A DNA stretch of 49,841 bases, from positions 1 to 49,841 of the forward strand of contig JALGWI010000015.1 in assembly GCA_025774245.1 (NCBI GenBank). The letters are read 5' to 3'. The notes below the pieces were generated by a model. That model did not search any database, was not told the DNA's origin, and worked only from the letters and a program-made list of their open reading frames with translations. Source of the DNA: a bacterium (lineage in GTDB: Bacteria; Joyebacterota; Joyebacteria; Joyebacterales; Joyebacteraceae). Positions 8,287-48,135 of the stretch are shown piece by piece; the stretch's first letter is position 1; every line of letters starts with the position of its first letter. The position numbers were made by a program, and so were the translations under genes.

Positions 8287-8297
8287 GGAGCGCGACC

Positions 8298-8840
8298 ATG
8301 AAAACGAGAACACGCAGGAAACGAGGAGACGGGCGGGCCGATCGTCGCGGAACGTTCGTGGCGCCCGTCCGCACGCAGGCCGGCTTCACCATCATCGAGC
8401 TTCTGGTCTCGATCGGCGCGGTGCTCACCGTCATCATGGCGACCGTCGCAACGTACCTCGGCACGACGCGGTCGTGGGAGGGCACGTCGACCCTCACGCG
8501 AGTGCAGCGAGAGGCGTCGTTCGCGCTGGAGGTCATGGGCCGTGCCATCCGGAAGGGCAGCACCGTGGACATCGGCGCTGCCGGCGATTCGCTGAGGATC
8601 CTCTTCTGGACCGGAAGCACCGACAGTCTGGTGGCCAGCTTCTACGTGGACGACCAGGGATGTCTGCGAAACCACACGGGCATGGTCCTCGTGGACGGCG
8701 CGGACTCCCTCTCGTTCGTGAGTAGCAACGGCAGGACGGTCAACATTGACATCGTGATCAGGGGCGACATGGGTACGGAGCAAGCCACGAGCGACGACCA
8801 CCTGGTGCTCATGTCCTCGACGATATCGTGCAGGAACTGA
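8298..8840 (+). CDS. PilW-like minor prepilin
   Basis: A 180-residue prepilin. After a basic leader of about 28 residues comes the type III cleavage site AG/FTIIELLVS, with Glu5 of the mature protein and a hydrophobic N-terminal helix for membrane insertion and pilus assembly. The QREASFALEVMGRAIRKG segment after the helix is characteristic of PilW/GspJ-type pilins. It begins 11 bases after the first PilX-like gene and is five bases from the next pilin, so it is translated from the same transcript. It is expected to be processed by PilD (12795-13556) and to prime pilus assembly with the other minor pilins. Confidence 0.82.
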   Translation: MKTRTRRKRGDGRADRRGTFVAPVRTQAGFTIIELLVSIGAVLTVIMATVATYLGTTRSWEGTSTLTRVQREASFALEVMGRAIRKGSTVDIGAAGDSLRILFWTGSTDSLVASFYVDDQGCLRNHTGMVLVDGADSLSFVSSNGRTVNIDIVIRGDMGTEQATSDDHLVLMSSTISCRN

Positions 8841-8865
8841 TCTCTTGAAGACGGAGGGTCGACTG

Positions 8866-9402
8866 ATGAGGACTGTAGAGCGGAGAGCGGGTGGCCCCGC
8901 AGTTCGCAGGAGCCGCAGGAGGACCCGTCCCCTCGCTCCGCCTCTCCTCGGGGGGGGAGCGAGCGCGGGGCTCGGAATGGTGGAGATCCTCGTCTCGGTA
9001 GTGGTGCTCAGCATCGTGATCGTTCCGATCTTCAACTCCCTCGTCTCAGGGAGGATCCTCGCCGCGCACCGGGGTGAGAAGCGGATGGCGCTGCGCCTCG
9101 TGGAGCGGAAGGTCGAGCAGCTGATGCAGGCGGGCTACGGCTCGAGCGGGAACGACGCCAACGTTCAGAGCGTCAACCTCGATGTCGGCGCGCACCCCAG
9201 CGATCCCGGCATCGTGGTGAATACCCGCGGCGACTCTCATGCCGGGAACGACGTGCTCGGAAGCCTGACCTGGTTCGTGACGGAGGCCGTGTGGTCGAGT
9301 CCGGGGGATCCCGTCTACGCCAAGGAGGTCGAGGTGAAGCTCGTCTGGCCGTCGGCCTCGCCCCGCGACAGCCTCACCGTAACGACGCTGATCGGAGGGT
9401 AG
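8866..9402 (+). CDS. PilV-like minor prepilin
   Basis: A 178-residue prepilin with a long basic and glycine-rich leader. Cleavage after the Gly of SAG gives mature LGMVEILVSVVVLS with Glu at position 5, followed by the hydrophobic helix. The segment MALRLVERKVEQLMQAGY after the helix is typical of PilV/GspI-type pilins. I chose the ATG at 8866, which has GGAGGG seven bases upstream, over an in-frame TTG at 8845. Sits between the PilW-like and the second PilX-like gene in the same operon. Confidence 0.8.
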   Translation: MRTVERRAGGPAVRRSRRRTRPLAPPLLGGGASAGLGMVEILVSVVVLSIVIVPIFNSLVSGRILAAHRGEKRMALRLVERKVEQLMQAGYGSSGNDANVQSVNLDVGAHPSDPGIVVNTRGDSHAGNDVLGSLTWFVTEAVWSSPGDPVYAKEVEVKLVWPSASPRDSLTVTTLIGG

Positions 9403-9496
9403 GCGCGCCGCCCCCCCTGCGACCGGGGGCAGGGTAGGCGCAGGTGTTCGCCGAAGTGCCGTGAGGACGGCCAAGGCGAGAAGAGGGGGTGAAGTC

Positions 9497-10933
9497 ATGA
9501 CAGCCTTCAGACGATTCATGAGATGGAGGAGAGAACGCCGCTGGAACGCTCGCGGCTCCGCGCTCGTGGCCGTGATGCTCATCGGCACCGTCATGCTCAT
9601 TCTCTCCCTCACGGTGTTCCAGTTCGGCTGGCAGGATGCGATTCTCGCCAAGCGCGACGAGAGCCAGGCCCGCGCGCTCTTCCTGGCGGAGTCGGGACTG
9701 GCGATGGGACTCTCCTGGCTCAAGGCCCAGGACGCGCCCCCCGATTCCACCACGACGATGCACCCGTTCGGCGCGTATCCCCAGACGCTCGCCGGAGGAA
9801 CCTACACCGTCACGATCGAACCCGACGCGCTCAATCCCGGAGCGACGCGGCTCATCTACACGATCCGCTCCACCGCCACGTCGGAAGGGCGCACCCGCAT
9901 TCTCGAACTCGACGTCTCCACCGGCACGGTCGCGAACTACCTCTACCTGACCAACCGAGAGCACATGCCGGGCGGCGGAGCCCCGCTCTGGTTCTGCGAC
10001 ACCGACGTCATCGACGGCCCCATGTTCACGAACGACCAGATCAGCATCTTCGGCGATCCCGAGTTCCTGGACATCGTGGGAAGCGCCTACGGCGGCCCCG
10101 ACGATGCCGGCAACGACCCGGGGTTCCTCTACTACAACGGCGACGAGCACAACCACATCGAGTCCGCAGCACCCAGCAACGCTCCGCACGACAACCCCAT
10201 CTTCCACGAGGGGTACGAGCTCGGGCTTCCGCAGGTCGAGTACCCGACAGCCAGCGCCGTGAACGACCTCGAGGTCATGGCGGCAGCGGCTGGGATTACC
10301 CTTACCATGGGTCCCTACGATATCTGGTTGAGCCGCCCCGACGAGAACGGCGATCCGACGTACGGCTACGTGAGCTACAGCAGGAAGGGCAAAGACGAGT
10401 GGACCGACATCGACCTCCACGGCTTCAACGGGATCATCTACGTCCACAGCGGTCTCACGGTTCGAGGCACGCTCGACGGCGAGATCACGATCGTGTCCGG
10501 AGGTTTCGTCGACGTCGTCGACGACGTGCTCTACCGGGACAGCGATGCGAACGGCCCCAGCCCCAACTGCGACGACCTCCTCGGGCTCATAGCAGGGACC
10601 GACATCAACATCGTGAGCAACGAGCCCAACCAGACCGACTGCGTCATCCACGCCGCGATGGTCGCGATCAACAACACCATGAGGGTCGAAAACTGGAACA
10701 CCGGTTCCCCGAGAGGAACGCTCACGCTCTACGGCAGCCTGGCGCAGGACTTCCGGGGCCCCGTGGGAACCGGCTACTGGCAGGACGGCGAGTTCATCAT
10801 CTCGACCGGCTACCAGAAGGACTACCACTACGATACCCGCCTCCGCAACTACTCGCCCCCGGGGTTCATCGAGTTCCTCCAGAGCGGCTTCTACACGAAG
10901 CTCTACTGGCGCGAGATCACGCCGGGCTGCTGA
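9497..10933 (+). CDS. PilX-like large minor pilin, copy 2
   Basis: A 478-residue paralogue of the first PilX-like protein. ARG/SALVAVMLIGTVMLILSLTVF supplies the cleavage-site glycine and hydrophobic helix. The extracytoplasmic part carries landmarks shared with copy 3: LTNREHMPGGG, FTNDQISIFGDPEF, SAYGGPDD, GSPRGTLTLYG and a C-terminal LYWREI. Start ATG has AGGGGG upstream; an in-frame GTG at 9461 lacks a good site. A strong hairpin follows at 10978-11003, ending the operon before the separately promoted copy 3. Role in the pilus tip is inferred from position and architecture. Confidence 0.8.
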   Translation: MTAFRRFMRWRRERRWNARGSALVAVMLIGTVMLILSLTVFQFGWQDAILAKRDESQARALFLAESGLAMGLSWLKAQDAPPDSTTTMHPFGAYPQTLAGGTYTVTIEPDALNPGATRLIYTIRSTATSEGRTRILELDVSTGTVANYLYLTNREHMPGGGAPLWFCDTDVIDGPMFTNDQISIFGDPEFLDIVGSAYGGPDDAGNDPGFLYYNGDEHNHIESAAPSNAPHDNPIFHEGYELGLPQVEYPTASAVNDLEVMAAAAGITLTMGPYDIWLSRPDENGDPTYGYVSYSRKGKDEWTDIDLHGFNGIIYVHSGLTVRGTLDGEITIVSGGFVDVVDDVLYRDSDANGPSPNCDDLLGLIAGTDINIVSNEPNQTDCVIHAAMVAINNTMRVENWNTGSPRGTLTLYGSLAQDFRGPVGTGYWQDGEFIISTGYQKDYHYDTRLRNYSPPGFIEFLQSGFYTKLYWREITPGC

Positions 10934-34795: not shown

Positions 34796-36193
34796 TCAGG
34801 AGTGTGGCATCCACGGAGGCCGTCGGGAGGAGATCCCGGCGGCCTCGAGCATTCCGGCTGAGGCTTCGTTCGCGGAGGCGACGATCTCACCCTCGTCCGC
34901 GCGGACGAGCGAGCGCGCAGCAACCACGATCTCGCCGTTCACGACGGTGTAGTCGACGGTGTGATCGAACCCCGAGTAGACGATCGCGGCCAGGGGATCG
35001 GCGAGCGCGCCGGCGTAGCCGAGCCGCCGCATGTCGAAAGCGATGAGGTCGGCCGCCTTCCCCTCCTCGATCGAGCCGCACTCGTCGCGTCCGAGGATCG
35101 AAGCGCCCCCGCGCGTCGCGAGCCGGACGATCCCCTCCGCCGTGATCGCCTCGGGTCCTCCCGTCAGAAGGTGCACGAGGAGGCAGTTCCGAAGCTCGCC
35201 GAGCATGTCCGACGTATCGTTGCTCGCGCTCCCGTCGACGGCGAGCCCGACGCGGACTCCCCTCTCGAGCATCTCCGGCACGCGCGCCACTCCGGACGAG
35301 AGGCGCATGTTCGACGTCGGGCAGTGCGCGATCCCCGTGCCGGTCGACGCGAGGAGCTCGAGCTCGGCGTCCTCGAAGTGGATCCCGTGCGCGAACCAGA
35401 CGTCCTCCCCCACCCAGCCGTGCCGCTCCATGACCGCGAGCGGGCGCGCCCCGTAGCGCTCGAGGCAGTACTCGGTCTCGTCGGCGGTCTCGGCGAGGTG
35501 CGTGTGGAGGAGCACGCCCTTCCGGCGCGCCAGCTCCGCCGTCTCCTTCATGAGCCTATCGGTCACCGAGAACGGCGAGCACGGCGCGAGCGCGATCCTC
35601 GTCATCGAGAACGGCTCCGGATCGTGGAAGCGGTCGACGAGCCGCTCGGAATCCCGGAGGATGTCCTCCTCGCGCTGGACGACCGAGTCCGGCGGAAGCC
35701 CGCCGTCCGAGCGCCCGCGCGACATGCTCCCGCGCGTCGGGTGGAAACGGATACCCAGCTCCCGCGCCGCCTCGATCTCGATCCCGATGAGATCCTCGTC
35801 GACGCCGGCCGGGAAGACGTACATCTGGTCGCTCGCCATCGTGCATCCGGTGAGGAGAAGCTCGGCGCACGCCAGGCGCGTGCTCGCCCGGATGACCTCG
35901 GGTGTCACGTGCGCCCAGATGTCGTAGAGGGTCGTGAGCCAGTCGAAGAGTTTCCTGTTCTGCGCGGCGGGGAGATTCCTCTGGAGCGTCTGGTAGAAGT
36001 GGTGGTGGAGGTTGACGAAGCCGGGCAGCACGAGCATCGACGAGCAGTCGATGATGCGGGCGCCTTCCGGCGCGTCGATCGCGTCGGCGATCCGCGCGAT
36101 CCGGCTGCCGTCGACGAGAACGTCGACACCGGAGAGCCGGTCCCCGGCGTCGTTCATCGTCGCGAGGTGGTAGACGTTCTTGAAGAGGATCAC
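34796..36193 (-). CDS. 8-oxoguanine deaminase (amidohydrolase family)
   Basis: A 465-residue zinc-dependent amidohydrolase. Metal motif NLHHHFYQTLQRN, then HTHLAETADE, HGIHF and VDGSASND, as in cytosine/guanine deaminase relatives. TRGSMSRGRSDGGLPPDS, LAPCSPFSVT and CPTSNMRLSSG match Pseudomonas 8-oxoguanine deaminase closely, which turns 8-oxoguanine into urate. GTG start overlaps the TGA of the upstream gene (GTGA), so translation is coupled. With the oxidoreductase pair upstream, an oxidised-purine salvage or catabolic route ending in urate is likely. E. coli SsnA, in a similar gene neighbourhood, is the other possible relative. Confidence 0.85.
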   Translation of the reverse strand: MILFKNVYHLATMNDAGDRLSGVDVLVDGSRIARIADAIDAPEGARIIDCSSMLVLPGFVNLHHHFYQTLQRNLPAAQNRKLFDWLTTLYDIWAHVTPEVIRASTRLACAELLLTGCTMASDQMYVFPAGVDEDLIGIEIEAARELGIRFHPTRGSMSRGRSDGGLPPDSVVQREEDILRDSERLVDRFHDPEPFSMTRIALAPCSPFSVTDRLMKETAELARRKGVLLHTHLAETADETEYCLERYGARPLAVMERHGWVGEDVWFAHGIHFEDAELELLASTGTGIAHCPTSNMRLSSGVARVPEMLERGVRVGLAVDGSASNDTSDMLGELRNCLLVHLLTGGPEAITAEGIVRLATRGGASILGRDECGSIEEGKAADLIAFDMRRLGYAGALADPLAAIVYSGFDHTVDYTVVNGEIVVAARSLVRADEGEIVASANEASAGMLEAAGISSRRPPWMPHS

Positions 36194-39069
36194 GGTCTGT
36201 CTCCGGTGGCGCCTCCGGTGCGGTCTCCGGAGCCGCCTCCCGCGGCCGCCTCGATGCCCGCCAGGACCCGCTCGGGCGTGAACGGAAGGTCCCTCAGCCT
36301 CACGCCGGTCGCGGCGAAGATCGCGTTCGCGACCGCCGGGGCGACGACGTCGACCGGGATCTCCGAGACGCTCTTCGCGCCGAAAGGCCCTGTAGGCTCG
36401 TTCGTCGTCACGAGGATCGCCTTGATCCGGGGAGCGTCGACGGCCGTGAACACGCGGTAGTCCCTGAGGTTCGCGTTCAGCATCCTGCCCTTGCCGTCGA
36501 AGAGCATCTCCTCGGAGAGCGCGTACCCGAGCCCCATGAGCACGCCGCCCTCGATCTGCCCCTCGGCGAGGGCCGGGTTGATCGGGAACCCGAGATCGAT
36601 CGCGCACGCGAAGTCGTGGACGTCGACGCGTCCGGTCTCGAGGTCGACCTCGACGGTCGTGCAGGCGGCGGCGAACGGCGGCGGGCAGTCGTACGTCACG
36701 TTCGAGGCGGTGAACGAGACCTGCTCCTTCTCCTCACCGTACATCGCGGCCGTCGCCACTTCTTTGAGCGTGACGCTCTTACCGGAGGCCGCCGTCACCC
36801 TCCCGGCGGCGCAGACGAGCCCCTCGGGCCCCTCGCCCAGGAGCGCGGCCGCGTGGTGAAGCATTCTGTCGCGCACGCGCTCGGCCGCCTTGACGACGGC
36901 GCCTCCGCTCACGTACGTCGTGCTCGACGCGTACGCGCCGACGTCGAACGGCGTCCGGTCGGTGTCGGAGGAATAGACGACGATCTCCCGGGCTTCCACC
37001 CCGAGGACCTCCGCCGCCATCTGCGCGAGGATCGTGTCGCTGCCGGTCCCGAGATCGGTCGCCCCGACGAGCAGGTTGAACGAGCCGTCCTCGTTCGCCT
37101 TGATCGTCGCCCCGCCCATGTCGTCGCCCGGAATCCCGCTCCCGTGCATGGCGAACCCGACGCCCTTGCCGACGCGCGTGTGCGACCTCGATCCAGGACG
37201 GCCAGTCTCGCCCGGCGCGAGCGAGGCCCGCCACGCGTCCCAGCCGGAGACCTCGCCGACCCTCTCCCAGCACTCGGCGAGCCCGTTCGTCCGGAAGATG
37301 CGCCTGAACCCCTCCTTCCCCTCGCCGAGCTTCGTGGCGAGCGGGTCCTCGTCGCCCTCCCTGACTGCGTTCGCGAGCCGGTACTCGACGGGGTCGATCC
37401 CGAGCGCGTGCGCGATCTCGTCCATGTGAGAGTCGACCGCGAAGTAGCCCTGGGGCGCCCCGTATCCGCGGCACGCGCCGCCGACGGCGAGGTTCGTGTA
37501 GACCGAGTCGTTCGAGAAGGAGATGTTCGGCGACCGGTAGAGAGGGAGCGACTTGCTGCCCGTGTTCGAGGGGACCGTGAGCGCGTGCGTGCCGTACGCC
37601 CCGGAGTTCGTGAGCACCTTCATCTCGCGCGCGACGATCGAGCCGTCGCTCCTCACACCGGTCCGGAGCCGGATGGTCTGGGGATGGCGCGTGCGGGTGG
37701 CCGCGAGCTCCTCGTCCCGATCGAGCCTGAGCTTCACGGGACGCCGCGTCCTGAGCGTGAGCGCGGCGCAGACGTCCTCGAGCACGACCTCCTGCTTGAC
37801 CCCGAACGCTCCCCCGATCCTGGGCTTGATGACCCTCACGCGCCAGAGCGGAAACTCGTTCACGCGCGCGACGATGCGGCGAACGTGGAACGGGACCTGC
37901 GTGCTCGTGATGACGACGAGCCTGTCCTTCTCGTCGAGGTAGGTCGCCGTGATGTGTGGCTCGGTCGGGTTCGCGTGGATGTACTGGACGCTGTAGGTGT
38001 GCTCGAAGACGCGGTCGGCCGAGTCGAAGCCCTTCGCCACGTCCCCGACCTCCGCGTCGACGTGGGCCGCGAGATTCCGCGACGCGTCGGCGATGCCCGA
38101 GGCGTCCTCCTCGTCGTGGATCACGGGCGCACCCGGGTCCATCGCGCGCTCGGGCTCGAGCAGGAGTGGAAGCACCTCGTACTCGACCTCGATCAGGTCG
38201 CACGCCCGCTTGGCGAGGAGCGGCGTCTCCGCCGCGACCGCCGCGACCCGGTCACCGACGAACCGCACCTTCCGGTCGAGCATCACGCAGTCGTACGGCG
38301 ACGGCTCGGGATGGTTCTGGCCAGCCGTCGAGAAGGGAACCCGCGGCACGTTCTCGTGCGTGAGGACGGCGTGGACGCCGGGAAGGGCGAGAGCCTTCGA
38401 GGTGTCGATCGCAACGATGCGCGCGTGCGCGTGGGGGCTCCGCTTGATGCGCCCATGGAGGAGCCCCTCGAACGCGAAGTCGTCGGTGTACTTCGCGAGC
38501 CCCGCGACGAGCCCGATGCCCTCGGTCTTCGCCTCACTGACGCCGACCGTGGCGAACCGCCCGTCGCCGGCCCGGTGCGCCGGGCCGCCCGCCTTCGCCG
38601 CCCCGCCCTCCCCCGCTGCGCCACCCGCGACGGCCTCGATCGCGTCGATCGCCTTCACGTATCCGGTGCAACGGCAAATGTTGCCGGAGAGGCCGCGTCG
38701 GATCGCCTCCTCGTCGGGGTTCGGGTTCTCATCCAGGAGAGCCTTCGCCGAGAGGATCATGCCCTGCATGCAGTAGGCGCACTGGGCGGCCCCGCGCGCG
38801 AGGAACTCGGACTGGAGAGGGTGCGGCGACGCCGGATCCCCGAGGCCCTCGATCGTGGTGACGGCGGCGCCCTCGACCTGCGCCGTCATCACCGTACACG
38901 AAGGGACGGGCCTGCCGTCCAGGAGGACCGTGCAGCTCCCGCAGCTTCCCGCGCGGCACCCCGCCTTGACGCCGCGCCACCCGAGCCGCCTGAGCGTGTC
39001 CAGGAGGACCTCGCTCGGCTGGATCGTGACGCGCACGGGGGCGCCGTTCACTGTGAAGCCGACGTCCAT
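36190..39069 (-). CDS. Xanthine dehydrogenase-type oxidoreductase, fused Fe-S and molybdopterin subunits
   Basis: A 959-residue molybdenum hydroxylase. Residues 1-150 hold two [2Fe-2S] clusters: CRAGSCGSCTVLLDG and QCAYCMQG followed by NICRCTGY. A linker of about 25 residues leads to the molybdopterin subunit (about 180-945) with GGAFGVKQE, AVGGACRGYGAPQG and GATDLGTGSDT. This fusion and its length match E. coli XdhD (956 residues). It hydroxylates a purine or other N-heterocycle and passes electrons to the FAD subunit encoded seven bases upstream. Substrate is inferred from the adjacent 8-oxoguanine deaminase; xanthine, hypoxanthine and guanine are candidates. Confidence 0.9.
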   Translation of the reverse strand: MDVGFTVNGAPVRVTIQPSEVLLDTLRRLGWRGVKAGCRAGSCGSCTVLLDGRPVPSCTVMTAQVEGAAVTTIEGLGDPASPHPLQSEFLARGAAQCAYCMQGMILSAKALLDENPNPDEEAIRRGLSGNICRCTGYVKAIDAIEAVAGGAAGEGGAAKAGGPAHRAGDGRFATVGVSEAKTEGIGLVAGLAKYTDDFAFEGLLHGRIKRSPHAHARIVAIDTSKALALPGVHAVLTHENVPRVPFSTAGQNHPEPSPYDCVMLDRKVRFVGDRVAAVAAETPLLAKRACDLIEVEYEVLPLLLEPERAMDPGAPVIHDEEDASGIADASRNLAAHVDAEVGDVAKGFDSADRVFEHTYSVQYIHANPTEPHITATYLDEKDRLVVITSTQVPFHVRRIVARVNEFPLWRVRVIKPRIGGAFGVKQEVVLEDVCAALTLRTRRPVKLRLDRDEELAATRTRHPQTIRLRTGVRSDGSIVAREMKVLTNSGAYGTHALTVPSNTGSKSLPLYRSPNISFSNDSVYTNLAVGGACRGYGAPQGYFAVDSHMDEIAHALGIDPVEYRLANAVREGDEDPLATKLGEGKEGFRRIFRTNGLAECWERVGEVSGWDAWRASLAPGETGRPGSRSHTRVGKGVGFAMHGSGIPGDDMGGATIKANEDGSFNLLVGATDLGTGSDTILAQMAAEVLGVEAREIVVYSSDTDRTPFDVGAYASSTTYVSGGAVVKAAERVRDRMLHHAAALLGEGPEGLVCAAGRVTAASGKSVTLKEVATAAMYGEEKEQVSFTASNVTYDCPPPFAAACTTVEVDLETGRVDVHDFACAIDLGFPINPALAEGQIEGGVLMGLGYALSEEMLFDGKGRMLNANLRDYRVFTAVDAPRIKAILVTTNEPTGPFGAKSVSEIPVDVVAPAVANAIFAATGVRLRDLPFTPERVLAGIEAAAGGGSGDRTGGATGDRP

Positions 39070-39076
39070 GGCTCCC

Positions 39077-39961
39077 TCACCGATCGTCGATGCCAGCTGC
39101 CTTGAGGAGCGTCCTCTTCGTGAGGACGCCGACCATCTTCCTGCGGTAGTCCGCGCTCGCCCGGTGGTTCGATCTCGGTTCGACCGATCCGGACGCGACG
39201 CGCCCGGCCTCCTCGAACGTCGAGACCGCGACCGGCTTCCCGGCCAGGAACGACTCGACCTCCCGGAGCCGCGACGGCGGCCGGCCGGTGCCGTTCACCG
39301 CCACGCGGGCCTCCGCGATCGCGTCCCCGTCGATCCTGAGCGCTGCCGCGCAGTTCACGATCGCGATGTCGACCTTGAGCCTCCCGAGCTTCTCGAAGGC
39401 GGCCGCGAACCCGCGACCCTCCCCCGGGATCCTGACCTCGATGATCAGGTCGCCCTTCTCGTGAACCTCCCGGCGGTTGCCGTAGAACTCCGTGAGGGCG
39501 ATCTCCCGGGTGCCCTCGCCGTTCAGGACCTCAAGCCGCGCGTCGAGAACGAGGAGCGCGGCGGGGAGGTCGGTCGGGTAGTGCGACACGACGATGTTCC
39601 CGCCGACGGTGGCGCGGTTTCTGACGGTGTGCGTGGCGACGGCGGATGCGGCGTCCCTCACGATCCCGGACGCCACGGCCGCCACCTCGGCATTGCGGGC
39701 CAGGTCCGCAATGCGCACGCCGGCGCCGATCGCGAGATCGGGCGCGGGCCCGTCGCCTTCGCGGCGGATGTAGTCGAGGCCGACGTGGGAGAGGTCGATC
39801 AGGTAGTCGAGCCGGGAGGACCCCGCCGGGACGAGGACCGTGCCGCCTGCGACGTAGAGGCCGTTCCCGGGCGTCGCATCGTAAAGCCTGACGGCCTCCT
39901 CCGGAGTCGTCGGACGGTGCAGGACCTCGAGATCCAGCATGGGTGTGTGCTCGCGGCTCAT
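39077..39961 (-). CDS. FAD-binding subunit of molybdenum hydroxylase
   Basis: A 294-residue subunit of the CoxM/YgfM type that carries FAD between the Fe-S clusters and the acceptor. FAD-binding motifs are YVAGGTVLVPAG and the second site TVRNRATVGGNIVVSHY. Usual length is about 290. I chose ATG 39961; ATG 39940 is also possible, and a TTG at 40048 is excluded because it lies at the predicted transcription start. Neither start has a strong ribosome site, so low translation or near-leaderless initiation is possible. First gene of the three-gene purine operon. Confidence 0.88.
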   Translation of the reverse strand: MSREHTPMLDLEVLHRPTTPEEAVRLYDATPGNGLYVAGGTVLVPAGSSRLDYLIDLSHVGLDYIRREGDGPAPDLAIGAGVRIADLARNAEVAAVASGIVRDAASAVATHTVRNRATVGGNIVVSHYPTDLPAALLVLDARLEVLNGEGTREIALTEFYGNRREVHEKGDLIIEVRIPGEGRGFAAAFEKLGRLKVDIAIVNCAAALRIDGDAIAEARVAVNGTGRPPSRLREVESFLAGKPVAVSTFEEAGRVASGSVEPRSNHRASADYRRKMVGVLTKRTLLKAAGIDDR

Positions 39962-40050
39962 GGGATCGAAGCTGGGCACGTGATGGGTAATGGGGTCAGC
40001 CGCGCGGGGCGTGCTCTCACCCGCGGGGCGGGCCGGAACCTCCAACACGC

Positions 40051-40530: not shown

Positions 40531-41706
40531 CTAGTCCAGAATCCGACGATCGATCGACGCGAGGTCTTTGCAGCCTGTCATGAGCATCCCCTTCCTGAGG
40601 ACGCTCCCGAGGCGGTTCATCTGGAGCTCGACGCCCTTGCTCCCGCCGCCGATCGCGGCCCGTATGACGTCCCGGCCGATCAGCACGGCCGTCGCCCCGA
40701 GTCCCAGGAGCTTGAGCACGTCGTAGCCGGTCCGGACGCCTCCGTCGGCCGTGACGAGGGCACTCCCGTCGACCCGGTCGACGATCCCGGGCAGGACGTC
40801 CGCCACGCCGGGGGTCCCGTCGAGGACCCTTCCGCCGTGGTTCGAGACGGCGACCACCTTCGCCCCGGCCGCGACGCACGCCTCGGCGTCGTCGGCGTCC
40901 ATGATCCCCTTGAAAATGAACGGCAACTCAGTGAACCCGACCAGCTCCTTCATGTCCTCGATCGTCTTCCTGTAGACGGGCTTCCCGGCCCGGGCAAAGT
41001 TCGAAGATCCGCAGCCGTCGAGATCGACACCGACGGCCGGGCACCCCGTCTTCTCGGCCCGCTCGATGAGCTCCTTGAGCGCGTCCTGCGCGCGGGGCTT
41101 GAAGATCGGGATCCCCCACCCGCCGGCGGCCTCGATCGCGTCGAGAGCCGGGTTCTCCTTCACCGTGTAGAAGAAGGTGTCGCCCCGAAGCGTCATCGTG
41201 CCGGCCTCCTTACAGCCCTCCACACAGGCGCGGCAGAAGTCGTCCTCGGAGATGGCGTCGTTGTACTTGGAGACGCCGCTCGTCGACGCTCCGAGGATCG
41301 GCATCGAGAGCTTGCGGCCGAGGAACGTCAGCTGGGTGTCGGCGTCGAAGTGGGGTCCGACCACGCGCGTGCGAAGCTCCACCTTCGCGAGCGCGGCCAC
41401 GTTCGCCTGGAAGCTCAGTCCCGACCCCACACCCCCGAGCCCGATCGGCTTCCCGTAGGCCTCGCGCTGGCAGATGCTGTTCTTGTCGCCGTCGCAGCGC
41501 GGATAGACGGCGCAGATCCCTCTGAGCTTCTCCCGGCAGCGGTCGCGCGCCTCCTCGAGCGTTTCGGGCTCGCCGGCGGCCCCGGCCGCCTCGTCGTCGC
41601 TCACGCGCACGAACTTCTCGGGTCCGACGCCGCAGACGGGGCACTTGTCGGGAGGCGTCTCCCCCTCGTGGATGTAGTTGCAGACGGTGCAGCGCCACTT
41701 CGGCAT
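40531..41706 (-). CDS. Rubredoxin-fused FMN-dependent alpha-hydroxy-acid oxidoreductase
   Basis: A 391-residue fusion. Residues 1-35 form a short rubredoxin-type iron site with C6, C9, C22 and C25 (WRCTVCNYIHEGETPPDKCP). After a linker, residues about 50-391 are a TIM-barrel FMN enzyme of the lactate oxidase/LldD superfamily: catalytic histidine in SNHGGRVLDG, flavin phosphate site ADGGVRTGYDVLK and AVLIGRD. Extra cysteines occur before the barrel (ICAVYPRCDGDKNSIC) and in DFCRACVEGCKEAG, as in anaerobe-type members. It would oxidise a 2-hydroxyacid such as lactate and pass electrons through the iron domain. ATG with AAGGAGA. Last gene of the operon that begins with another rubredoxin fusion. 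Confidence 0.85.
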   Translation of the reverse strand: MPKWRCTVCNYIHEGETPPDKCPVCGVGPEKFVRVSDDEAAGAAGEPETLEEARDRCREKLRGICAVYPRCDGDKNSICQREAYGKPIGLGGVGSGLSFQANVAALAKVELRTRVVGPHFDADTQLTFLGRKLSMPILGASTSGVSKYNDAISEDDFCRACVEGCKEAGTMTLRGDTFFYTVKENPALDAIEAAGGWGIPIFKPRAQDALKELIERAEKTGCPAVGVDLDGCGSSNFARAGKPVYRKTIEDMKELVGFTELPFIFKGIMDADDAEACVAAGAKVVAVSNHGGRVLDGTPGVADVLPGIVDRVDGSALVTADGGVRTGYDVLKLLGLGATAVLIGRDVIRAAIGGGSKGVELQMNRLGSVLRKGMLMTGCKDLASIDRRILD

Positions 41707-41773
41707 GCGGGTTCTCCTTCTGATTCCGTTCGTGTGGTGCGTTGTTGCTGTGCGCCGCGCGCGGCGTCCGGCG

Positions 41774-43159
41774 CTACTCCGCAGGTTCGGTCGCGCGTCT
41801 CGGGTCGAGGAGCGCGTCGAGCTCGTCGGCGGGAAGCACGTCGCGCTCGAGAGCCACCTCGCGCACGGTGCGTCCGGTCCGGTGGGCCTCCTCGCTGATC
41901 TCGGCCGCGCCGTCGTAGCCGATCACGGGCGCGAGCGCGGTCGCGATCTCGAGACTCATCTCGACGTCCCTGGCGCAGCGCTCCCGGTCGACCTCGATCC
42001 CCCGCACGCAGCGGTCGGTGAACGCCCGGACGGCGCCCGCGAGCCACTCGATCGAGTTCAGAAGATCGTAGGCCATGACCGGCATCATCGTATTGAGCTC
42101 GAAGTGGCCGCCTAAGCCTCCCAGGGCGACGGTCGTGTCGTGGCCGACGACCTGCGCCGCGACCATGATGAGCGCCTCGGCCATGACCGGGTTGACCTTC
42201 CCGGGCATGATCGACGAGCCCGGCTGCACGGCGGGAAGCCGGAGCTCCCCGAGCCCGCTCCTCGGGCCCGAGCCGAGCCAGCGGACGTCGTCGGCGATTC
42301 TGGCGAGGCTCACCGCGATCGTACGGATCTCCCCCGATGCCTCCACGATGCCGTCGCGCGCCGCGTTCGCCTCGACGTGGTTCGCGGCCTCGACGAACCC
42401 GCCCCCCGACGCCTCGTTGATGTGCGCGATGGCGCGCCCCGCGAACCCGCGCGGGGCGTTGACGCCCGTGCCGACGGCCGTCCCTCCGAGCGGCAGCTCC
42501 CTCATTGCCTCCGCGGCCCTGCCGGCCCGCTCGACCCCTTTCCTGGCCTGCGCGGCGTAGCCACCGAACACCTGCCCCACCCGGATCGGGGTCGCGTCCA
42601 TGAGGTGCGTCCGACCGATCTTCACGACGTCGTCGAACGCGCGCGCCTTATCTTCGAGCGCGCCCGCCAGGCCCTCGAGCGCCGGGACGAGGTCCTTCCG
42701 GAGGCACGTCACCGCCGCGACGTGGATCACGGTCGGAATCACGTCGTTGCTCGACTGGCTCATGTTGACGTGGTCGTTCGGGTGGACGGGCGATCGGGAG
42801 CCGATCTCGCCGCCCAGGATCTGGATCGCGCAGTTGGCGACGACCTCGTTTGCGTTCATGTTGGTCGACGTTCCCGAGCCCGTCTGGAAGACGTCGACGG
42901 GGAACTGGTCGTCCCACTTGCCCTCGATGATCTCGTCGCAGGCCTTGACGATCGCGTCGCCGAGGCCCGCGTCGAGATGCCCGAGCTCGACGTTCACGAG
43001 CGCAGAGGAGCGCTTGACGAGCGCGAGCGCCGCGATGAACCGCCGCCCGAACTTGAGTCCCGAGATCGGGAAGTTCTCGACGGCCCGCTCTGTCTGCGCG
43101 CCCCAGAGGGCGCCGTCGGGGATCTCGACCTCACCCATCGAGTCGCGTTCTCTTCTCAT
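41774..43159 (-). CDS. fumC: Class II fumarate hydratase
   Basis: A 461-residue iron-free fumarase that interconverts fumarate and malate as a homotetramer. The superfamily signature is GSSIMPGKVNP; other active-site regions are QTGSGTSTNMNANEV, MSQSSNDVIPT and KIGRTHLMDATP. Length is standard. The ATG overlaps the sdhB stop (ATGA), so the two are coupled. It follows sdhA-sdhB, so the operon carries succinate-fumarate-malate interconversion in one unit. Class II length and signature separate it from argininosuccinate lyase and aspartase, although aspartase is close in sequence. Confidence 0.93.
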   Translation of the reverse strand: MRRERDSMGEVEIPDGALWGAQTERAVENFPISGLKFGRRFIAALALVKRSSALVNVELGHLDAGLGDAIVKACDEIIEGKWDDQFPVDVFQTGSGTSTNMNANEVVANCAIQILGGEIGSRSPVHPNDHVNMSQSSNDVIPTVIHVAAVTCLRKDLVPALEGLAGALEDKARAFDDVVKIGRTHLMDATPIRVGQVFGGYAAQARKGVERAGRAAEAMRELPLGGTAVGTGVNAPRGFAGRAIAHINEASGGGFVEAANHVEANAARDGIVEASGEIRTIAVSLARIADDVRWLGSGPRSGLGELRLPAVQPGSSIMPGKVNPVMAEALIMVAAQVVGHDTTVALGGLGGHFELNTMMPVMAYDLLNSIEWLAGAVRAFTDRCVRGIEVDRERCARDVEMSLEIATALAPVIGYDGAAEISEEAHRTGRTVREVALERDVLPADELDALLDPRRATEPAE

Positions 43160-43857
43160 GGCTTCACCCGCTCCCGCGTCGCGAGGATGCCCTTCGTGGG
43201 ACGGACGCCCTTCGGGCAGATCTTCGAGCAGCTCCACACGACGTCGCAGCCCCAGACCCCGGCTTCGCTGTCGACGAGCTTGAGCCTCTTCTCGCCGGCG
43301 CCGTCGCGCGCGTCGGCGAGGAACCGGTAGTGCTTCGCGAGCGCCGCCGGCCCGAGGTACTCGGGATCGCGCGCGGCGACCGGGCAGACCCCGTGGCAGC
43401 TCGCGCAGAGGATGCAGTTCGTGTAGGGCTCCGCCTCCGTCCAGTCGTCCGGACTCACCGGGCGCTCGCGCTCGGGCGCGGGCTCCGCCGGCTGCAGCCA
43501 CGGCTCGACGGCGAAGTCCTTCTCGAAGAAGGAGTCCATGTCGACGACGAGGTCCTTCACGACCTCGAGGTTCGGCAGCGGGTCGACCGTGACCGTCTCG
43601 CCTTCGAGCCCGCGCACCTGCGTGCGGCACGCGAGGCGCACGACGCCGTCGATGGCCATCGCGCACGAGCCGCACACCGCCCCGCGGCAGGCGTACCGGA
43701 ACGCGAGCGTCCCGTCCTGCTCCGCCTGGATCCTGATGAGCGCCTCGAGCACCGTCATCCCCTCGGGGACGTCGATCACGTACTCGCGGTAGCTCGGCGC
43801 GGCGTCCTCCGCGGGATCGTACCGCCGGATCCTGAACGTGCGTGCCGTCTTCGCCAT
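43156..43857 (-). CDS. sdhB: Succinate dehydrogenase/fumarate reductase iron-sulfur subunit
   Basis: A 233-residue electron-transfer subunit. The [2Fe-2S] ligands are in CRGAVCGSC plus the cysteine of VRLAC. The C-terminal ferredoxin domain has CILCASCHGVCP for [4Fe-4S] and CDVVWSCSKICPKG for the [3Fe-4S] and remaining ligands. The ATG overlaps the sdhA stop by one base (TGATG). It is the B subunit for the flavoprotein just upstream. The membrane anchor genes (SdhC/D or SdhE type) that normally flank it are not in the window, so either they lie elsewhere or the enzyme works as a soluble dimer. Confidence 0.93.
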   Translation of the reverse strand: MAKTARTFRIRRYDPAEDAAPSYREYVIDVPEGMTVLEALIRIQAEQDGTLAFRYACRGAVCGSCAMAIDGVVRLACRTQVRGLEGETVTVDPLPNLEVVKDLVVDMDSFFEKDFAVEPWLQPAEPAPERERPVSPDDWTEAEPYTNCILCASCHGVCPVAARDPEYLGPAALAKHYRFLADARDGAGEKRLKLVDSEAGVWGCDVVWSCSKICPKGVRPTKGILATRERVKP

Positions 43858-45560
43858 CAGTACTTCCTCTCCATCGGTTCGTAGCTCGTGATGATGACGT
43901 CCTCGTAGCCGATCGCGGGCTCGCCGCCTTCGACGTGCGTCGCCATCGTGTGCTTGAGCCAGTCGTCGTCGTTCCTGGCGGGATGGTCGGTCCGCCAGTG
44001 GGAGCCCCGACTCTCGGTCCTTGCCAGGGCGCCTGCGGCCGTGACGTGCGCGAGCTCGAGCATCCCTCCGAGCTCGAGCGTGTCGATGAGATCGTAGTTG
44101 AACGGCTCCCCCGTGTTCGCGAGCGACACGTTCCGGTGGCGTTCCTTGAGGCCGGCGATCGCGTCGACGGCCCCGGCGAGCGGTCGCTCCTCTCGGAAGA
44201 GCCCGACCTTCTCGGTCATGACCGACTGCATCTCCCGGCGAACGGCGTCCTGTCGCTCGCGTCCACCGCGCGATTTGAGCGCCGCGATCGATCTGCGCGC
44301 GTCCTCGAGCGCCGCCGAGAGAGCCCCGTCCGAGGCCGACCCGCCCCCGACGAGCCCCGCGGCCCGGTCCCCGGCGCGCTTCCCGAAGACGAGCGTCTCG
44401 AGGAGCGAGTTCCCGCCGAGCCGGTTCGAGCCGTGGACGCTCACGCACGAGCACTCGCCGCACGCGAGGAGTCCGGGAACGTCGGTCGCGCCGTCCTCGT
44501 CACAGGAGAGCCCGCCCATCGAGTAGTGCTGCCCCGGCTGGACCGGGATCGGCGTCTCGATCGGGTCGACGCCCGCGAAGTCCATCGCGATCTGTCGGAT
44601 GCCCGGCAGTCGCGACATGATGACGTCGGCGCCGAGGTGGCGGATGTCGAGGTGGACGTAGCCCCCCTCGAACCCGCGCCCCTCGTCGATCTCCGTCTGG
44701 ATGGCGCGGGCCACGATGTCGCGCGGCGCGAGCTCCATCACCGACGGGGCGTAGCGATCCATGAAGCGGTTGCCCTCGGCGTTCGCCAGGTGACCGCCCT
44801 CGCCTCGCACGCCCTCACTGATGAGGATGTTCGTTCCGAAGAGCGTGGTCGGGTGGAACTGGACGAACTCAGCGTCCTCGAGCCGCGCCCCGGCGATGTA
44901 GGCGGCCGCGGTCGCGCTTCCCGTGTTGATGTAGGCGTTCGTCGTTTTGGCGAAGACGCGCCCGTACCCGCCGCCGGCGAGCACGGTGGCGTCGGCTCCG
45001 AAGGCCGCGAGCTCGCCCGACGGGACGTGCATCGCCACCGCCCCGACGACCCGTCCCCCGGACGTGACGAAGCGCGTGATGAACCACTCGTTCAGAAACG
45101 TGATGCCGCGCTTGATGCACTGCTCCCAGAGCGTGTGGAGGAGCTGGTGCCCCGTGCGGTCGGCGGCGTAGCAGGTGCGAGGGAACCCCGCGCCGCCGAA
45201 CGGTCGCTGCGCGATCCGGCCGTCCGGGAAGCGGCTGAAGTAGGCGCCCCAGTGCTCCATCTCGATCACGCGCGCGGGCGCGTCCTGCGCCAGGATCTCC
45301 GCCCTCGGCTGGTCGGCCAGGTAGTCGGAGCCCTTGATCGTGTCGAAGGCGTGCTTCTCCCAGGAGTCGTCGTGCCCCTCGGGGTGGTTCCCGAGGGACG
45401 CGTTCACGCCTCCCTGCGCCGCCCCCGAATGCGAGCGGATCGGGTAGACCTTCGAGAGCACGGCGACGTCGTGCCCGGCGTCGTGGATGGCGACCGCGGC
45501 GCGAAGCCCGGCGAGGCCTCCTCCGATGACGAGCACGTCGTGGCGGGTGATCTCAGGCAT
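43857..45560 (-). CDS. sdhA: Succinate dehydrogenase/fumarate reductase flavoprotein subunit
   Basis: A 567-residue flavoprotein. The dinucleotide motif is [14 protein letters not shown]; the histidine that carries FAD covalently is in [12 protein letters not shown]; the substrate site has FHPTTL and [11 protein letters not shown], with the proton-shuttle arginine there. [18 protein letters not shown] is the C-terminal FAD signature. Direction (oxidation of succinate or reduction of fumarate) cannot be told from sequence. Start ATG with GGAGA upstream; 63 bases downstream of the rubredoxin-oxidase gene. Co-transcribed with sdhB and fumC. Confidence 0.94.
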
Positions 45561-45623
45561 GGCATGTCTCCAATGGGCGTATCTCCGGTGCGGCTCTCGC
45601 CGCGGCCGTCGCTTGGGCCTCTG

Positions 45624-47402
45624 TCAGTCGATGCGCTTGGCCGAGGCGGCCATCTTCTCTCGATCGACGATCACGTCGATGATCGCCGGCTTCTTCGAGC
45701 GGAACGCGCTCGCGAGTGCCTGATCGAGGTCCTTCGGATCCTCGACGCGGTAGCCCTCCCCTCCGGACGACCGGGCGAACTCGGCGAAGTCGGGATTGGG
45801 GAAGCTGATCCCGAACTCGGGGTAGCCGTCGCGCGCCATCTCCTTCTTGATGTTCTTGAGACGCTCGTCGTTCATCACGATGACGTTGATGGGAAGCTCC
45901 TCCCTCACGGCCGTCGTGAAGTCGGCCATGAGCATTCCGAAGCCGCCGTCGCCCGTGAGACAGACGATCTGCTTGCCGGGATACGCCAGCGCCGCGGCGA
46001 GCGCTGCCGGCAGCGCGAAACCCATGCTCGCGATGTTCGCCGAGAGGAACGTCCTCTGCCCAACGCAGACGAAGCGCTTGTAGAACCAGTACGTGTGGTC
46101 GCCGACGTCGACCGTGATGATCGCGTCGTCCGCGACGTTCCTCCGGAGCGCCTGCATGACGTACCCGGGATTGATCGGCTTCGAGAGATCGTTCGCTTCC
46201 TCCTCGAACTCCGCGGCCTCCTGGGCCTTGAACGTCTCGATCTTCTTCCAGAACGACGTGTCCTCCTCGCGCGGCTCGAGCCTCTCGACGAGCATCTCGA
46301 GCGCTGCTCCGGCGTCGCCGACGATCCCGACGTCGATGTCGAACGTCCTCCCGATCCTCGTCGGGTCGATGTCGATCTGGACGATCTTCGTTCCCGCGGG
46401 GATGAGCTGCGCGTGGCGGAATCCCGTGCCGATCACGATCACGAGCTCGACGTCCTGGAGCGCGAGCGCCGCGTGTTTCGAGCCGATCGAGCCGAGGACG
46501 CCGACGCTCGCCCGTTCGGTCTCGTGGATCGCCCCCTTGGCCCTCGACGTCGTCGCGATCGGGCACTTGAGACAGGAGGCGAGCTTAAGGAGGAGGTCGC
46601 CGTGGTGGCGCGCGCCCCACCCCGCAAGGATCGCGGCCCTGCCGTGTTTCTTGATGAGCGCGACGGCACGATCGATCTGTTCCTCCCGGGGACACGGCAG
46701 GTCGAGGAAGAGCCTCCGGCCGGGATCGAGCGCCGCCTCGTCGAGCGGATCGACGAGAACGTCGGTCGGCGTCGAGAGGATCGAGACGCCGGGCTGTCTG
46801 TACGCGTGCTTCGCGGCGTTGAGCGTGAGCCGGAGCGCCTGGTTCGGGCGCGCCACGGTCTCGGCGAACTCGGTGAAGGGATGGAAGAGCTCGAGCTGAT
46901 CGATCTCCTGGAAGGCCGAGCTGCCGAGGTAGACCTCGGCGACCTGGCCGACGAGGCCGAGCGCGGGCGCCCGGTCTGCCTGGGCGTCCATGAGTCCGGT
47001 CACGAGGTTCGTGGCGCCCGGTCCGGCGATCGACATGCAGACACCCATCTTGTCCGTCATCTTGCCGTGGGCCGCGGCCATGAAGGCGGCCGTCTCCTCG
47101 TGGCGCGTCAGCACGAACCTGATGCGGCCGTTGCGCCGGATCGAGTCGACGAGCGGGAGGTTCGAATCCCCGGGGATGCCGTAGACGCACTCGACGCCGA
47201 GTGCGACGAGCTGCTCGACCATCCTGTCGGCGACGGTCGTCCCGATCGCAGCGTCTCCCCTGACGATCCCCTCGGGGACGAACGCCGACTTGGGGGCGCC
47301 GCAGCTCGGACAGGTGTAGCTGTCGGGCTGGTCCGCGAAGGGGACGCCTTCCACCTCCTCGTCGTAGACCCAGTTGCAGACGGTGCACCGGAACCGTGCC
47401 AT
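45624..47402 (-). CDS. Rubredoxin-fused thiamine-diphosphate enzyme (pyruvate oxidase type)
   Basis: A 592-residue fusion. Residues 1-45 are a complete rubredoxin with iron ligands C6, C9, C31 and C34 (FRCTVCNWVYDEE ... YTCPSCGAP). Residues about 55-590 have the three ThDP-family domains: Pyr domain with the catalytic glutamate in TRHEETAAFMA, central FAD/nucleotide domain (AAILAGWGARHH region), and PP domain with magnesium motif GDGGFGMLMADFTTA...NVIVMND. The closest named relatives are PoxB/pyruvate oxidases. It would decarboxylate pyruvate or a related 2-oxoacid and may send electrons to its own rubredoxin. First gene of the operon with sdhA, sdhB, fumC and another rubredoxin fusion. Confidence 0.86.
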   Translation of the reverse strand: MARFRCTVCNWVYDEEVEGVPFADQPDSYTCPSCGAPKSAFVPEGIVRGDAAIGTTVADRMVEQLVALGVECVYGIPGDSNLPLVDSIRRNGRIRFVLTRHEETAAFMAAAHGKMTDKMGVCMSIAGPGATNLVTGLMDAQADRAPALGLVGQVAEVYLGSSAFQEIDQLELFHPFTEFAETVARPNQALRLTLNAAKHAYRQPGVSILSTPTDVLVDPLDEAALDPGRRLFLDLPCPREEQIDRAVALIKKHGRAAILAGWGARHHGDLLLKLASCLKCPIATTSRAKGAIHETERASVGVLGSIGSKHAALALQDVELVIVIGTGFRHAQLIPAGTKIVQIDIDPTRIGRTFDIDVGIVGDAGAALEMLVERLEPREEDTSFWKKIETFKAQEAAEFEEEANDLSKPINPGYVMQALRRNVADDAIITVDVGDHTYWFYKRFVCVGQRTFLSANIASMGFALPAALAAALAYPGKQIVCLTGDGGFGMLMADFTTAVREELPINVIVMNDERLKNIKKEMARDGYPEFGISFPNPDFAEFARSSGGEGYRVEDPKDLDQALASAFRSKKPAIIDVIVDREKMAASAKRID

Positions 47403-47658: not shown

Positions 47659-47705
47659 TTGACTTCCCGCGACAAACGTCGCAGAATAAGTGTGACAGTT
47701 GTCAC
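47659..47705 (+). promoter_or_regulatory. Promoter and BlaI-type operator of the repressor/sensor pair
   Basis: TTGACT (47659-47664), 17 bases, CAGAAT (47682-47687) form the promoter. Directly after the -10 lies a perfect dyad GTGACA-GT-TGTCAC (47692-47705), the same half-site spacing as the TACA-N2-TGTA operators of MecI/BlaI. A second partial dyad GCGAC-AAAC-GTCGC (47669-47682) fills the spacer. Binding would block the polymerase, consistent with autorepression. Confidence 0.65.
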
Positions 47706-47730
47706 CGATGGCCAGGATGAGGAGACGCAC

Positions 47731-48135
47731 ATGGGCTCTCTCCCCGATCTCTCCCGCTTCGAGCTTCAGTGCCTGAGGAAGCTCTGGAATCGCCGCGAGG
47801 CGTCCGTCCGGGAGATCCGCGAAGATCTGACCGACCCCCCGAGCTACTCGACCGTGAGGAAGATCGTCGAGCGGCTCGAGGACAAGGGCGCCGTCGTCCG
47901 CGTGCGGAAGGACGGCAAGGCCTGGGTCTATCGCTCGGCCGTCTCCCCCTCCGCGATGCTCCGGAAGGAGATCCGCCGCTTCCTCGACGTCGCCTTCGAC
48001 GGCTCGGCCGCCCCTCTGATGGCCCAGCTCGCTCAGATGGACGAGGTGACCGTCGAGGACTTGAAGGAGATCGAGGATCGCGTCGCGCAGAAGGCCTCGC
48101 AGAAGCCGCGGCGAGGCAAGGACGTGAAGGAGTAG
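47731..48135 (+). CDS. BlaI/MecI-family transcriptional repressor
   Basis: A 134-residue dimeric winged-helix repressor. The DNA-binding part is at 5-75: LSRFELQCLRKLWNRREASV, REIREDL, SYSTVRKIVERLEDKG; the C-terminal helices dimerise. It normally represses a BlaR1-type sensor and its target gene and is inactivated by proteolysis upon signal. GAGGAG precedes the chosen ATG 47731; an upstream in-frame TTG at 47659 lies in the promoter. Its partner is 14 bases downstream. No beta-lactamase gene is in the window, so the target may be the pair itself or a gene elsewhere. Confidence 0.9.
   Translation: MGSLPDLSRFELQCLRKLWNRREASVREIREDLTDPPSYSTVRKIVERLEDKGAVVRVRKDGKAWVYRSAVSPSAMLRKEIRRFLDVAFDGSAAPLMAQLAQMDEVTVEDLKEIEDRVAQKASQKPRRGKDVKE

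Follow-up and report, generated by a model that had tools for sequence, protein, structure and literature searches.

The window, 49,841 nucleotides of contig JALGWI010000015.1 from the metagenome-assembled genome (MAG) of a sediment bacterium (3.2 Mb, 97% complete), carries on its minus strand an operon of five genes whose first and last members encode a rubredoxin-type domain fused to an enzyme of organic acid oxidation. We propose, with a probability of about 0.52, that the first is a soluble, flavin adenine dinucleotide (FAD)-dependent oxidoreductase passing electrons from pyruvate or another 2-oxo acid to rubredoxin, that the last is its 2-hydroxy-acid counterpart, and that the electrons leave both enzymes through rubredoxin toward a cytochrome or a cysteine-rich DUF2769 protein, which are likelier acceptors than the succinate dehydrogenase/fumarate reductase subunits (SdhAB) encoded between them. 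In the order of transcription, the operon comprises:

45624-47402, minus strand: rubredoxin fused to a thiamine diphosphate (ThDP) enzyme of the pyruvate-oxidase type, 592 amino acids, first gene (open reading frame, Pfam)
43857-45560, minus strand: SdhA/FrdA-type flavoprotein, 567 amino acids (TIGR01812 with 733 bits, motifs)
43156-43857, minus strand: SdhB/FrdB-type iron-sulfur subunit, 233 amino acids, 11 cysteines (Pfam, NCBIfam, motifs)
41774-43159, minus strand: FumC, class II fumarase-type lyase, 461 amino acids (TIGR00979, motifs)
40531-41706, minus strand: rubrerythrin-type rubredoxin fused to a flavin mononucleotide (FMN) 2-hydroxy-acid dehydrogenase, 391 amino acids, last gene (Pfam)

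Both fusions had been described in an earlier reading of the letters (hereafter the original prediction) and are borne out by open reading frames and Pfam matches: a full rubredoxin (cysteines 6, 9, 31 and 34) precedes the pyruvate-oxidase-like ThDP enzyme, and a shorter site of rubredoxin type (cysteines 6, 9, 22 and 25) precedes the FMN enzyme. The overlapping start and stop codons of that description hold for sdhA/sdhB (1 bp) and sdhB/fumC (4 bp), but not for the flanking junctions, where gaps of 63 bp (ThDP fusion to sdhA) and 67 bp (fumC to FMN fusion) were found. The five genes are probably co-expressed.

The ThDP fusion matches Rubredoxin (PF00301) at amino acids 3–41 (domain, amino acids 1–45) with 33 bits against a cut-off of 23, followed by TPP_enzyme_N/M/C. 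One scan of GTDB genomes recovered about 60 homologues at 46–83% identity. Their bacterial hosts are Eisenbacteria, WOR-3/Stahlbacteria, Aminicenantes, Coatesbacteria and Actinomycetes, and their archaeal hosts Methanococcoides/Methanohalophilus (Methanosarcinaceae), ANME-2, Methanoperedens, Thermoplasmatales, Bathyarchaea, and Thor-, Heimdall- and Lokiarchaea; the nearest relatives of the window on the tree of this enzyme are Candidatus Eisenbacteria MAGs. The four rubredoxin cysteines are invariant in all 57 bacterial and archaeal homologues with an N-terminus, in a sample that leans towards rubredoxin-bearing members because one of the six search patterns lay inside the rubredoxin. In Methanohalophilus sp. 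RSK (locus L018, match at 8001-9776) the gene has an in-frame TAG at codon 386, where M. euhalobius has Glu; pyrrolysine read-through, which is known in Methanosarcinales, a mutation and an error are the candidate causes.

The AlphaFold model of the ThDP fusion (predicted local distance difference test, 87.5) has PoxB (3eya) as its best fold match in the PDB, with template modeling scores of 0.82/0.93. With E. coli PoxB and the pyruvate:quinone oxidoreductase of C. glutamicum the fusion shares the ThDP fold at about 31% identity, the ThDP glutamate (E102) and GDGG, both invariant in the family, and the FAD-site positions G304, S305, F328, R329 and D344, which are invariant across the alignment; E521 is kept in 58 of 59 sequences. 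From these aligned positions the enzyme is predicted to bind FAD. It differs from these enzymes in its N-terminal rubredoxin and at several further points. Asn517 occupies the position of PoxB F465, which lies near the flavin; Asn stands there in 59 of 59 sequences, which makes the electron path look distinct, and the position of PoxB N460 is Asp. The alignment stops near residue 534 of the 572 of E. coli PoxB, so that the C-terminal membrane tail is missing, which fits an enzyme that does not use quinone.

According to the proposed mechanism, a 2-oxo acid, most likely pyruvate, would be oxidatively decarboxylated on ThDP, and the electrons would pass to FAD and next, one at a time, to the fused rubredoxin, which would hand them to an external carrier. 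As a one-electron exit the rubredoxin would take the role of the membrane/quinone tail of PoxB. The FMN fusion would do the same for a 2-hydroxy acid in the range of malate or lactate through its rubrerythrin-type site. Both sites would hold iron, and the reactions would run in the direction of oxidation. Together with soluble SdhAB and FumC, the two fusions may thus form a co-expressed set for the oxidation of C3/C4 acids, with a membrane b/c-type cytochrome (a DUF6529-cytochrome c) and/or small cysteine-rich carriers (DUF2769) as the most likely acceptor, rather than SdhAB directly.

The recurrent neighbors of the ThDP fusion bear on this choice. DUF2769 (PF10967), a small protein with about 10 cysteines, is encoded within 3.5 kb of the fusion in 18 of 62 loci (L007, L008, L012, L013, L015, L019, L033, L043, L046, L048-L050, L052-L054, L057, L058 and L064). 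Using a profile that was built from matches near the fusion, 24 DUF2769 matches lay within 3.5 kb of it and one beyond, over equal sequence lengths; examples were confirmed with Pfam. A DUF2769 gene also stands about 10 bp before the rubredoxin-FMN gene of ANME-2 (L146:7358-7657), and we regard the family as a candidate redox partner of the rubredoxin fusions. In Aminicenantes, Coatesbacteria and Eisenbacteria, one neighbor of the ThDP fusion is a protein of the DUF6529/cytochrome c type with four transmembrane segments. In the phylum of the window this protein was found in all eight genomes with the fusion and in 5 of the 12 others (Fisher p = 0.015, from a test on 20 related genomes), and the window genome encodes it on another contig. 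DUF6529-cytochrome c and DUF2769 are thus better-supported partners than SdhAB. In several Aminicenantes (L046, L048, L049, L051-L054, L057 and L064) the ThDP fusion lies near a fusion of rubredoxin with the beta subunit of ferredoxin:thioredoxin reductase, usually followed by a thioredoxin/glutaredoxin-like protein.

While the building blocks are known, the papers searched (subscription journals were outside the search) hold no description of a PoxB-type rubredoxin-ThDP fusion, of its breadth or of its links to DUF2769 and DUF6529, and nothing on DUF2769 itself or on rubredoxin with the succinate dehydrogenase of Lokiarchaeota. The fusion is a widespread, apparently undescribed enzyme of bacteria and archaea.

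In the operon, SdhA has the FAD-linking His, His236, His345 and the Arg residues, and SdhB has ligands for all three clusters; in this full set of cofactor ligands the pair resembles complex II (SdhCDAB/FrdABCD). Unlike complex II, it has no anchor subunit gene with it in the operon, a second, complete and canonical SdhCDAB stands elsewhere in the genome together with the sole Sdh_cyt genes found, and the operon SdhB reads CPVAAR where the canonical SdhB reads CPSFWT, so that the SFW segment is absent. This change fits a non-ubiquinone partner and is no proof of a quinone-free one. The stronger statement that SdhB lost its ubiquinone site and hence uses no quinone is weakened, since menaquinone-type fumarate reductases are not known to have the SdhB Trp either and its change is therefore not specific. 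The thiol:fumarate reductase TfrAB of methanogens offers the idea of a soluble, anchor-less fumarate reductase, but was rejected as an identity for the pair: SdhB, with 233 amino acids, ends after the third cluster without a C-terminal CCG domain, and scores 142 bits with the NCBIfam TfrB model against a cut-off of 385. FumC carries the GSGTS, SSND and SSIMPGKVNP motifs and reaches 587 bits with TIGR00979, under the cut-off of 665.

The order ThDP fusion, SdhA, SdhB and FumC is kept in L004, L005 and L061 and in part in L006, L008, L009 and L011. It is more than chance because it is kept in relatives whose ThDP parts share 70–83% protein identity. Lokiarchaeum (L030), Aminicenantes (L050, L047) and Coatesbacteria (L056) also have SdhAB or SdhA next to the ThDP fusion. 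On the ThDP tree, the label for adjacent sdhAB must have changed at least four times on well-supported branches; L029 bears that label although its contig ends first, and L030 alone carries that branch. If a genome has 2.5 SdhA-like genes per 3.2 Mb, chance alone would place SdhA within 3.5 kb in about 0.5% of genomes. The link between SdhAB and the ThDP fusion is therefore real, but optional; it holds in only about one fifth of the loci. In L010 (4414-4603) the ThDP fusion precedes an SdhB remnant that consists of the final 41 residues; sdhAB was apparently deleted there, or the contig is mis-assembled.

These data allow a reading in which SdhAB works as a soluble fumarate reductase independent of quinone and receives electrons from both rubredoxin domains or, in reverse, supplies the rubredoxins. 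The potential of fumarate is about +30 mV. The recurrence on at least four branches, the missing anchor gene beside a complete second enzyme and the altered SdhB agree with this reading, and a rubredoxin with a potential near 0 mV (PMC9304861) could energetically reduce fumarate. By the same potential, O2 or reactive oxygen species (ROS) reductases and cytochromes are also possible acceptors. Most loci with a fusion have no sdhAB nearby, L010 keeps the ThDP fusion with its SdhB remnant, the SdhB change is not specific, and in Coatesbacteria the DUF6529-cytochrome c gene directly precedes sdhA in the manner of an anchor. We thus consider this reading quite unlikely. The same low standing applies to its broader version, in which the 2-oxo-acid and 2-hydroxy-acid fusions would exchange electrons with anchor-less SdhAB through rubredoxin or DUF2769-type carriers, as a branch of the tricarboxylic acid (TCA) cycle that runs on rubredoxin instead of nicotinamide adenine dinucleotide (NAD) and quinone and has related versions in Asgard archaea. 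Of the soluble, quinone-free carboxylate oxidation module that had been predicted originally, the soluble C3/C4-acid enzymes, the operon without an anchor gene and the ThDP enzyme without the PoxB tail stand, whereas coupling to fumarate reduction, though possible, is not supported, with DUF2769 and, in bacteria, DUF6529-cytochrome c as the strongest recurrent partners.

The FMN fusion combines RUBY_RBDX (PF21349; amino acids 4–32, domain 1–35) with FMN_dh (PF01070) and has a three-cysteine motif, C65-x5-C71-x7-C79, between the two. Its Lys266, His290 and Arg293 align with the catalytic residues of HAO1 and are invariant in 26 homologues, and structure comparison gave a fold like that of HAO1 and mandelate oxidase. 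The FMN barrel and these residues are shared with LldD, HAO1 and lactate oxidase. In contrast to them, its first half has diverged, including the region of the second substrate Arg, and it bears the N-terminal Cys motif and the rubredoxin module; another substrate is possible, and the LldD equivalog cut-off is missed by far (111 against 550 bits). The usual form in the large family of this enzyme is free of rubredoxin and carries C-x2-C-x2-C-x4-C at its N-terminus; C-x5-C-x7-C replaces that motif in the window and in Asgard members. Rubredoxin was added to the FMN enzyme on two occasions: the window protein received a short module, and the protein of an ANME-2 genome that also has the ThDP fusion received a full one and lost the native Cys motif. 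L082, L084, L085 and L087 encode proteins of about 750 amino acids whose C-terminal half belongs to the same enzyme family and of which we know no description; the N-terminal half of L082 looks ATP-grasp-like by eye.

Within the phylum, the FMN enzyme occurs in 2 of 20 genomes, and the copy of the relative L004 is frameshifted. Rubredoxin-FMN fusions were also considered in another bacterial family, where the FMN enzyme was found in 63 of 79 genomes; those of its matches that were examined lack the rubredoxin domain. Both fusions occur together only in the genus of the window (two of three genomes), the ANME-2 pairing using its independent rubredoxin-FMN fusion. Separate occurrence in relatives without sdhAB had been named originally as a finding that would speak against a joint module: the fusions are separate in most relatives, but sdhAB adjacency recurs as described above.

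A refinement of the proposed function, compatible with it, is that the rubredoxin-FMN enzyme oxidizes malate to oxaloacetate with rubredoxin as acceptor and replaces malate dehydrogenase after FumC. The FMN enzyme adjoins FumC here and in two Lokiarchaea; the rubredoxin-free Asgard relatives stand beside TCA-cycle genes, namely aconitase, mostly with citrate synthase, in Heimdall- and Lokiarchaea and also fumarase in the latter; and the ANME-2 fusion is close to aconitase. None of the malate dehydrogenase families Ldh_1, Ldh_2 and Mqo was found in the window genome or in most genomes of the phylum, which are mostly near-complete. The last observation cuts both ways, because most of these relatives also lack the FMN enzyme, which weakens the idea of a replacement. 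Moreover, Ldh_2 is present in the Loki- and Heimdallarchaeal genomes, the FMN enzyme occurs together with Ldh_1 in the sister species G002, and lactate or glycolate are possible substrates. Malate as the substrate is thus possible, though doubtful.

An anaerobe might instead use organic acids as reductant for oxidative-stress defense, with the rubredoxin-fused enzymes feeding O2 or peroxide reduction by rubrerythrin or flavodiiron proteins. There is a precedent in the butyryl-CoA oxygen oxidoreductase of Fusobacterium, a Bcd-EtfA-rubredoxin fusion from which electrons go to a flavodiiron protein; it resembles the present enzymes in principle, in that a dehydrogenase of a carbon substrate releases its electrons through a fused rubredoxin (PMC12288474). 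It belongs to the acyl-CoA dehydrogenase family and has O2 as acceptor, whereas the window operon has TCA genes as neighbors and no flavodiiron or rubrerythrin gene. A rubredoxin-GltB fusion adjoins the ThDP fusion in L007, L019, L027 and L028 (WOR-3, Methanosarcinaceae and Actinomycetes). CD0828 of C. difficile has this architecture, which shares an N-terminal rubredoxin on an FMN TIM-barrel enzyme with our FMN fusion, and protects against H2O2; its reduction of Rbr and Sor in vitro was slow (PMC11980386). Unlike the FMN fusion, it has a glutamate-synthase-like domain and is reducible by NADH, and its kind is not in this operon. Genes for an NADH:rubredoxin oxidoreductase and a rubredoxin, as well as rubrerythrin-like genes, are present in the host genome. 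Among the nearest two neighbors listed for the ThDP fusion, which covered part of the loci, no rubrerythrin, desulfoferrodoxin or flavodiiron gene was recognized by eye, with one ferritin-like neighbor in L037. We therefore regard stress defense as unlikely. The window genome encodes a third rubredoxin fusion on another contig (L002/L147:5026-6615), a rubredoxin-glutamate-synthase-like FMN enzyme of CD0828 architecture.

It is very unlikely, in our view, that the CxxC sites serve as structural zinc ribbons and that co-regulation of central metabolism alone accounts for the order of the genes. Short rubredoxin-like loops can bind zinc, and the rubredoxin-FMN fusion is confined to one genus in the phylum; against this, both Pfam models, rubredoxin and rubrerythrin-rubredoxin, score higher than their cut-offs, the cysteines are strictly conserved across very divergent phyla, and ANME-2 independently added a full rubredoxin to the FMN enzyme. 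That the sites could hold zinc is nevertheless one of several points that weigh against rubredoxin-linked oxidation of 2-oxo and 2-hydroxy acids. At least one homologue, L059 (Dojkabacteria), whose N-terminus is readable, has no rubredoxin domain, and L055 apparently lacks it too. The ThDP fusion misses the NCBIfam equivalog cut-off for pyruvate oxidase (at best 467 of the 742 bits needed), and acetolactate synthases bind FAD too. The origin of the DUF2769 profile and the relatedness of the genomes in the DUF6529 test count here as well.

Upstream of the operon lie a regulatory gene and a repeat:

47659-48135, plus strand: BlaI/MecI-family repressor gene, divergent from the operon (PF03965)
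47669-47705, no strand assigned: two inverted repeats, GCGACAAACGTCGC at 47669-47682 and GTGACAACTGTCAC at 47692-47705, conserved in three species

The divergent blaI is also present in the relatives L004 and L005. The repeats overlap a promoter-like site of blaI (47659-47687) and are a probable BlaI operator; the repressor probably regulates its own gene and possibly the operon. An M56/TonB-like gene seems to come after blaI. Downstream of the operon, at 36190-40048, stand a molybdenum hydroxylase (fused Fe-S/Mo subunit) and its FAD subunit, of the xanthine dehydrogenase/4-hydroxybenzoyl-CoA reductase type, a position kept in L004, L005 and L010.

Rubredoxin is normally tied to O2/ROS defense or alkane oxidation. 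If the proposed function is true, the PoxB-type rubredoxin enzyme would be an overlooked route of 2-oxo-acid oxidation without ferredoxin, NAD or quinone, spanning methanogens, methane-oxidizing archaea, Asgard archaea and several candidate bacterial phyla. It would also tie the orphan cysteine-rich DUF2769 and the DUF6529-cytochrome to a testable electron chain, and would matter for understanding what TCA-type genes do in Asgard archaea.

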